Assembly (NCBI GenBank): GCA_023250585.1
Contig: JAHFAK010000079.1
Coordinates: 1 to 11,403 of the forward strand
Reading direction: 5' to 3'
DNA: 11,403 bases
DNA from: Deltaproteobacteria bacterium
Lineage (GTDB): Bacteria > Bdellovibrionota_F > JAHFAK01
Of this stretch, positions 5,978 through 7,587 are shown one piece after another (the first letter of the stretch is position 1; each line of letters begins with the position of its first letter). Below the pieces are notes generated by a model, which was not told the origin of the DNA, ran no database searches, and saw only the letters and a program-made list of their open reading frames with translations. A program made the position numbers and the translations under genes.

Positions 5978-6007
5978 TTGACATAATACTTAATAATATT
6001 TAATAAT
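5978..6007 (+). promoter_or_regulatory. Promoter of the toxin-antitoxin locus
   Basis: TTGACA (5978-5983, perfect -35) is followed after 18 bases by AATAAT (6002-6007, 5 of 6 to the -10 consensus). The predicted transcript start is about 6014, shortly before the antitoxin start codons. The surrounding 40 bases are almost pure A/T with repeated TAATA/TATTA steps, including TTAATA and TATTAA in inverted orientation about 18 bases apart. That could serve as the operator where the ribbon-helix-helix antitoxin represses its own promoter; this part is inference. Confidence 0.5.
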
Positions 6008-6037
6008 AATTTATATTAACTATAGATGAGACATACG

Positions 6038-6271
6038 ATGAAAAGCACAAAAAATATTTCTATTTCCTTACCATTACCCATGTGTAAATTTGTAGAAAAA
6101 TTGGCTAAAGAAGAATCGAGAACGATTAGTGAACTCGTAAGAGAAGCATTACGTCAATATCAAAGTAAAACCGAGTGGCAAAAAATAAGATTATGGGGTT
6201 CTCACTTAGCAAAACAAAAGAAGCTATCTCCTAAAGATATTGAAAATTTGATTGATGAAATCCGGAAATAA
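6038..6271 (+). CDS. CopG/ribbon-helix-helix antitoxin
   Basis: A small basic protein, 77 residues from the ATG at 6038. It begins with the ribbon strand (STKNISISLPLPM), followed by two helices (CKFVEKLAKEESRTISELVREALRQYQ), which is the CopG/Arc-type DNA-binding fold. The C-terminal half (SPKDIENLIDEIRK) would be the toxin-binding tail. Antitoxins of this type pair with PIN-domain toxins: they neutralise the nuclease and repress their shared promoter. An ATG at 6026 would add four residues (MRHT); I prefer 6038 because the family usually starts two or three residues before the strand and a GAG-containing stretch lies upstream at usual spacing. The toxin start follows the stop with only two bases between. 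The antitoxin frame is intact while its partner is broken. Confidence 0.8.
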   Translation: MKSTKNISISLPLPMCKFVEKLAKEESRTISELVREALRQYQSKTEWQKIRLWGSHLAKQKKLSPKDIENLIDEIRK

Positions 6272-6273
6272 GA

Positions 6274-6689
6274 GTGAAAGTTGTCTGCGATACTAATATA
6301 TTCATTTCTGCCATCCTTTTTGGTGGTAAACCTGAAGAAATAATTAAACGTGGGAAAGAAGGCTCTTTTGAAATTGTCATTTCAAATTTTATACTTCACG
6401 AAATTATTAAAGTTCTTACAGAAAAATTTAATGCTCCTTTTGAAATAATTCAAAATGTTATCATGGATTTACGAAGTTACGTTACCTTAATATCACCTCA
6501 AAAATATCACCTCAAAATAAAATTACTGTTCTCAAAGAAGATGATTCCGACAATCGGATACTCGAATGTGGGGTGTCAGCAAATGCTCACTATATAATAA
6601 CTGGAGACAAAAAGCATTTATTACCACTGAAAGTGTATCATGGAATTAAGATAGTGAACGCCGAAACATTCTTGAAGCTATTTTCTTAA
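6274..6689 (+). pseudogene. PIN-domain toxin, frame broken by a 14-bp duplication
   Basis: It starts with GTG two bases after the antitoxin stop. The first part (VCDTNIFISAILFGG, then FEIVISNFILHEIIKVL) is the N-terminal half of a COG1569-type PIN-family ribonuclease toxin, with acidic residues Asp6 and Glu43. The original frame then runs into non-homologous sequence from about residue 78 and stops at 6595-6597, giving 107 residues. The missing C-terminal half is present in another frame from about 6519 to the TAA at 6687-6689: EDDSDNRILECGVSANAHYI, then ITGDKKHLLPL and IKIVNAETFLKLF. These supply the remaining metal-binding acids (the DD-D cluster and Asp of TGD). The shift coincides with two exact copies of a 14-bp unit at 6490-6517; deleting one copy gives a continuous 133-residue protein of normal family length. 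The toxin is probably inactive as written, unless this is a sequencing error or a switchable repeat. Confidence 0.85.
6490..6517. repeat. Exact 14-bp tandem duplication inside the PIN toxin gene
   Basis: ATATCACCTCAAAA occurs at 6490-6503 and again at 6504-6517 with no mismatch. As 14 is not a multiple of three, the extra copy shifts the reading frame, and removing it restores the toxin frame exactly. Confidence 0.95.
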
Positions 6690-7450: not shown

Positions 7451-7480
7451 TGGGGGAGTTAGGTAATTTCTCTATGGAAC

Positions 7481-7560
7481 TGGATCCCGCGGTCAAGCCG
7501 CGGGATGACAATTTGAGAGTGTTTCCCGTTTGTCATCCCGTGGCTTGACCACGGGATCCA
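7481..7560. repeat. Paired palindromic repeat (REP/BIME-like)
   Basis: Two 30-base units at 7481-7510 and 7531-7560 lie in inverted orientation, separated by 20 bases. Each unit is itself a hairpin with a 9-bp stem and a 5-base loop: ATCCCGCGG (7484-7492) with CCGCGGGAT (7498-7506), and ATCCCGTGG (7535-7543) with CCACGGGAT (7549-7557). Reverse-complementing the second unit gives the first with only two differences, and those two bases pair with each other within each stem, so the hairpin is kept. The GC content is far above the surroundings. It lies between lipB and serB and could also end lipB transcription, though no T-run follows. From memory, similar palindromes are dispersed in Rickettsiales and other alphaproteobacterial genomes; copy number here cannot be judged. 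Confidence 0.9.
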
Positions 7561-7587
7561 TCTTCATTTTTCCCATTTACTGAGCTG

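Follow-up and report, generated by a model that had tools for sequence, protein, structure and literature searches.

A perfect 14-bp tandem duplication splits a PIN toxin gene downstream of an intact antitoxin gene

A toxin gene interrupted by a perfect tandem repeat can be read in two ways, as a gene that has just begun to decay or as one that gains and loses a repeat copy and is switched off and on. The initial annotation had proposed both readings for a PIN toxin gene from a genome of the Bdellovibrionota_F, and here we ask which of them fits the locus better. The window analysed is a whole contig (C154) of 11,403 bp; the source genome amounts to 2.24 Mb in 164 contigs, is rated 97% complete and has a GC content of 35%, and a 16S rRNA gene was not found in its assembly. 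The comparison set includes two genomes of the host phylum, the nearest relative belonging to another genus of the same class.

A PIN toxin in two reading frames

Judged by its sequence, the locus is a type II toxin-antitoxin module, in which a ribbon-helix-helix (RHH) antitoxin is followed by a PIN toxin of the TIGR00305/COG1569 family, a predicted ribonuclease (Table 1). The small DNA-binding antitoxin gene lies directly upstream, with 2 nt between its end and the start of the toxin gene. A 10-bp-period repeat of 2.6 copies at 5978-6008 (bounds also given as 5983-6008) coincides in part with the promoter-like site that precedes the antitoxin gene and is possibly an RHH operator, which we list as a candidate. 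Promoter-like matches in the window are no more numerous than in shuffles.

Table 1. Coordinates of the features of the toxin-antitoxin locus in the window.
Feature	Position	Strand	Description
Sigma-70-like promoter match upstream of the antitoxin	5978..6007	+	TTGACA-18-AATAAT; consensus match only
RHH antitoxin gene	6026..6271	+	ribbon-helix-helix, CopG-type, RHH_1; 81 aa, intact; PF01402 E=1.3e-7
PIN toxin gene as written	6274..6597	+	starts with GTG; 107 aa, of which the final ~31 are out of frame
14-bp tandem unit ATATCACCTCAAAA, copy 1	6490..6503	+	
14-bp tandem unit ATATCACCTCAAAA, copy 2	6504..6517	+	perfect, directly adjoins the first
C-terminal half of the PIN toxin, shifted frame	6504..6689	+	open to TAA at 6687-6689; DD..DN and TGD motifs

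The family match of the toxin as written ends at the repeat, and the rest of the profile is matched by the shifted frame. For TIGR00305, the N-terminal piece matches positions 1-80 (34.7 bits against a cut-off of 29.15, with E=1.8e-8 over these positions only), and the C-terminal piece gives a separate match to positions 86-111, which at 20.1 bits is alone below the cut-off, yet covers the remaining profile. The PF13470 (PIN_3) profile is divided in the same manner, with positions 1-66 in the N-terminal piece and 83-115 in the C-terminal piece (E=4.5e-5). The split over two frames recurs when the genome is searched in all six frames, and neither half of the toxin has a further stop or frameshift. 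The conserved C-terminal half is thus open in the other frame to 6689, as the initial annotation had it, and its count of 133 residues for the restored protein is borne out by adding the 76 residues that run through the first copy to the 57 that follow. Alignment to the paralog and homologs described below likewise confirms that the 107-residue product lacks the DD-D and TGD acids; it keeps D6 (the aspartate of DTN) and E43, and loses the acids of DD..DN and TGD. The full set of PIN acidic residues is not found in any one reading frame, and we file the toxin as a broken TIGR00305/COG1569 member.

For the structure we turn to the closest intact paralog, on contig C126, whose model (pLDDT 91, pTM 0.84) has a PIN/VapC-like fold. 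In this model a strand (70-72) and a helix (86-97) are joined by a long loop (residues ~73-85), and the duplication site falls where that loop begins. Since that helix and the strands that follow it are removed with the C-terminal half, we can safely infer that the 107-residue toxin is inactive, its nuclease activity being predicted to be lost.

The duplication and its single-copy relatives

The two copies of ATATCACCTCAAAA stand head to tail and are perfect, just as had been claimed. An extra matching base at 6489 extends the repeat tract to 29 bp, or 2.07 copies, and these two are the only exact copies of ATATCACCTCAAAA in the genome. Such pairs are rare by chance: 1000 shuffles of the window under a dinucleotide model yield three tandem pairs with a unit of at least 12 bp, and one with a unit of at least 14.

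A six-frame search finds three intact TIGR00305 members elsewhere in the genome, on contigs C127, C113 and C126. The closest is the C126 paralog (L005), which aligns without gaps to both pieces of the broken toxin, at 41% identity over its residues 1-76 for the first piece and again at 41% over its residues 68-130 (63 residues) for the second. The residues of the paralog where these two alignments overlap are those encoded by both repeat copies. The antitoxins of the window and of the intact C126 module share 34% identity. Three homologs from other phyla (L012-L014), found in Woesebacteria, Gottesmanbacteria and Lentisphaerae assemblies, form uninterrupted proteins of 135-137 residues with one copy of the sequence, and each has a small antitoxin-like ORF directly upstream. 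Because the two repeat copies align to one and the same set of paralog residues and the homologs have a single copy, we take one copy to be ancestral and the second to be an insertion, so that the two-copy form is the derived one. A repeat at the duplication site is absent from all three intact paralogs and from all homologs compared. In other searches, the TIGR00305 family was not found in the nearest compared genome, no relative was found among viral contigs, a plasmid search gives only distant full-length PIN toxins, matched by the C-terminal piece alone, and a sequence search of the PDB gives no real match.

To place the duplication among others in the same genome, we scanned 1,375,119 bases (61% of the genome, sampled in stretches) and find 24 perfect tandem duplications whose units measure 10-100 bp. 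Eight have units of at least 12 bp: six are of 12 or 15 bp, multiples of three, one is of 17 bp, and one is that of the window. The 17-bp duplication starts at a gene's stop codon and covers it, and the window case is the only one of the eight, in 1.375 Mb, that splits a gene. Four other candidates for frame breaks were rejected, as none is a broken gene: the one in stretch L083 lies at a gene junction, that in L092 where a gene starts, that in L113 where a gene ends, and that in L022 at the ends of a mobile element. A sole gene-splitting duplication in this sample fits the purging of frame-breaking duplications except where the loss is tolerated.

Several repeats of other kinds were also noticed. 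In L083 (82-1807), two adjacent ORFs of 270 and 302 aa resemble in appearance a pair of the AbiEi/AbiEii type, and a 10-bp tandem repeat lies where the two genes meet. A dispersed element with inverted ends GACCGAAACGTGCCCGGCAA is found at L021:5780-7046, where the ends are ~1.27 kb apart, and at L022:4038-4161, where they are ~0.1 kb apart (MITE-like); the tips of the L022 copy are tandem-duplicated over 10-11 bp. In the window itself, a GC-rich imperfect palindrome with 38-nt arms lies at 7474-7567 between lipB and serB. Copies of its core CCCGnGGnCAAGCCnCGGGATGAC number 34, counting both strands, and are spread over 20 of the 121 sampled stretches, which makes the palindrome a member of a dispersed palindromic repeat family.

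Decay, switching or residual toxin

We consider it probable that the locus is a redundant toxin-antitoxin module whose toxin was recently inactivated by the 14-bp microduplication, the antitoxin being kept. The duplication would have arisen by replication slippage or a similar end-joining event, and slippage appears the likely origin; the resulting +14 shift would stop the protein after 107 residues, before the second half of the catalytic core, and the toxin would thereby be lost first while the antitoxin is retained. The loss of the toxin before the antitoxin is the expected order in the decay of type II modules. The genome has three further TIGR00305 genes, all intact, which makes the redundancy plausible, and loss of the toxin was presumably neutral or beneficial. 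The sequence around the repeat offers an alternative origin for the duplication. Exact microhomology flanking the 14-bp period is about 1 bp, and AATA is found again 13 bp away; slippage at this AATA microhomology, together with one extra A at the junction, might also give the repeat. We rejected a mutator as the explanation, MutS being present in the genome; 14-base loops are not usual MutS substrates.

The decay reading of the initial annotation also called the event fresh, and here the locus agrees: the repeat copies are perfect, and both halves of the toxin are otherwise open. The 137 codons without further lesions give, under a neutral model with assumed indel/substitution ratios of 0.05-0.15, an upper bound of roughly 0.04-0.08 substitutions per site since inactivation. 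The inactivation therefore appears to be recent, at under about 4-8% neutral divergence, an age that rests on this rough bound since the nearest compared genome is of another genus and does not have the family. That the repeat copies are identical also agrees with a recent age, though it tells less than the lesion-free codons.

The other half of the earlier proposal, a phase-switch-like repeat, is not supported. A locus in which the gain or loss of one 14-bp copy turns the toxin off and on, kept because this is useful, could work in principle, since slippage or recombination is able to remove one of two perfect tandem copies, and there are precedents in the reversible duplications of fission yeast and the repeat phase variation of M. 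tuberculosis promoters. In principle, reversal is open to every perfect tandem duplication. Those two cases rest on observed changes of copy number, whereas here there is one consensus sequence with only two copies of the unit, and neither the homologs nor any of the three intact paralogs has a repeat at the site; for these reasons we do not accept a switch and regard it as very improbable. A small amount of toxin might instead be made from the two-copy form if the ribosome or the polymerase slipped by -1 on the A5 run where the two repeat copies meet (CAA AAA TAT). By frame arithmetic the product would be open, with 138 residues and a five-residue repeat, and on the paralog model the insertion would sit in the predicted loop (~73-85), in the gap between strand and helix. 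InDel bypass has been documented at homopolymers of 3-8 bases and rises with run length (PMC3812077), although five A make a weak slip site. An in-frame X_XXY_YYZ heptamer was not found at the shift, where 6499-6507 reads CAA AAA TAT and allows a single-codon AAA slip only, and the arrangement is not conserved, the homologs being uninterrupted; bypass seems to us a shade more doubtful even than the switch. A broader version, in which the two-copy duplication tunes the module either through a low-rate on/off state or through trace toxin from -1 slippage at the A5 junction, is improbable too, if slightly less so than either mechanism alone.

It is also conceivable that the two-copy state is an artefact of assembly, of consensus calling or of a strain mixture, with a population that is mostly one-copy and has its toxin intact. 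The genome is in 164 contigs and the two-copy state is known from one consensus contig, and the window case is exceptional, with almost no other frame-breaking duplication in the sampled genome. Against this, the eight perfect duplications with units of at least 12 bp are mostly in frame and look biological. A tract of 29 bp fits within ordinary read and k-mer lengths, and an error of 14 bases is unusual, which also counts against an artefact; we think it unlikely, while giving it more weight than the switch or bypass. Either bypass or a mixed population could leave some full-length toxin. That the 107-residue form is itself functional, for instance binding the antitoxin without catalysis, we hold to be scarcely credible: its N-terminal half is in place, with two acids of the set, but its last ~31 residues are out of frame and without homology, half of the PIN core is missing, and the short form is not seen in any homolog compared.

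Recent inactivation of the toxin thus remains our preferred reading, by which the locus is one more case of toxin loss in a redundant module with the antitoxin remaining, and the duplication an ordinary gene-breaking mutation. The locus would matter more if two-copy microduplications prove reversible in natural populations, and it is a clean place for counting one-copy and two-copy molecules.

Comparison with known systems

Pseudogenes formed by short tandem duplication resemble this locus in that a small, perfect, head-to-tail duplication breaks a reading frame. The locus is also, in principle, as reversible as the short tandem duplications of fission yeast, which a review describes as reversible, microhomology-mediated and disrupting coding frames (PMC13207564), but the exact microhomology next to the 14-bp period amounts here to only ~1 bp. 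Phase-variable tandem-repeat loci share a unit that is not a multiple of three and lies inside a coding frame; in contrast to these, the window has two copies only, and the repeat tract is not maintained in the paralogs and homologs. Repeat copy number in M. tuberculosis promoters varies at 1e-2 to 1e-3 per chromosome (PMC12817950). In Xenorhabdus, duplications of 26-116 bp in lrp are among the mutations found, and the variants were judged not to be phase variants (PMC6786866). Programmed -1 frameshift genes combine a slippery heptamer with conservation of the arrangement in homologs, and the toxin gene has neither.

Among toxin-antitoxin systems, the locus belongs with the TIGR00305/COG1569/PF13470 toxins that accompany RHH antitoxins, as both pieces match this family, and the operon order and small intergenic distance are as in the C126 paralog and the three homologs. 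It differs from them in that the frame is split by the 14-bp duplication and the written product is without its C-terminal half. With the VapC PIN ribonucleases, such as VapBC2 of Rickettsia felis (3zvk) and VapC of Shigella (5ecw), the model of the intact paralog has the overall fold in common (Foldseek E of about 1e-4 to 2e-3, TM 0.6-0.7), while the identity is 13-19%, so that the paralog represents a distinct family inside the PIN fold and is not a VapC by sequence.
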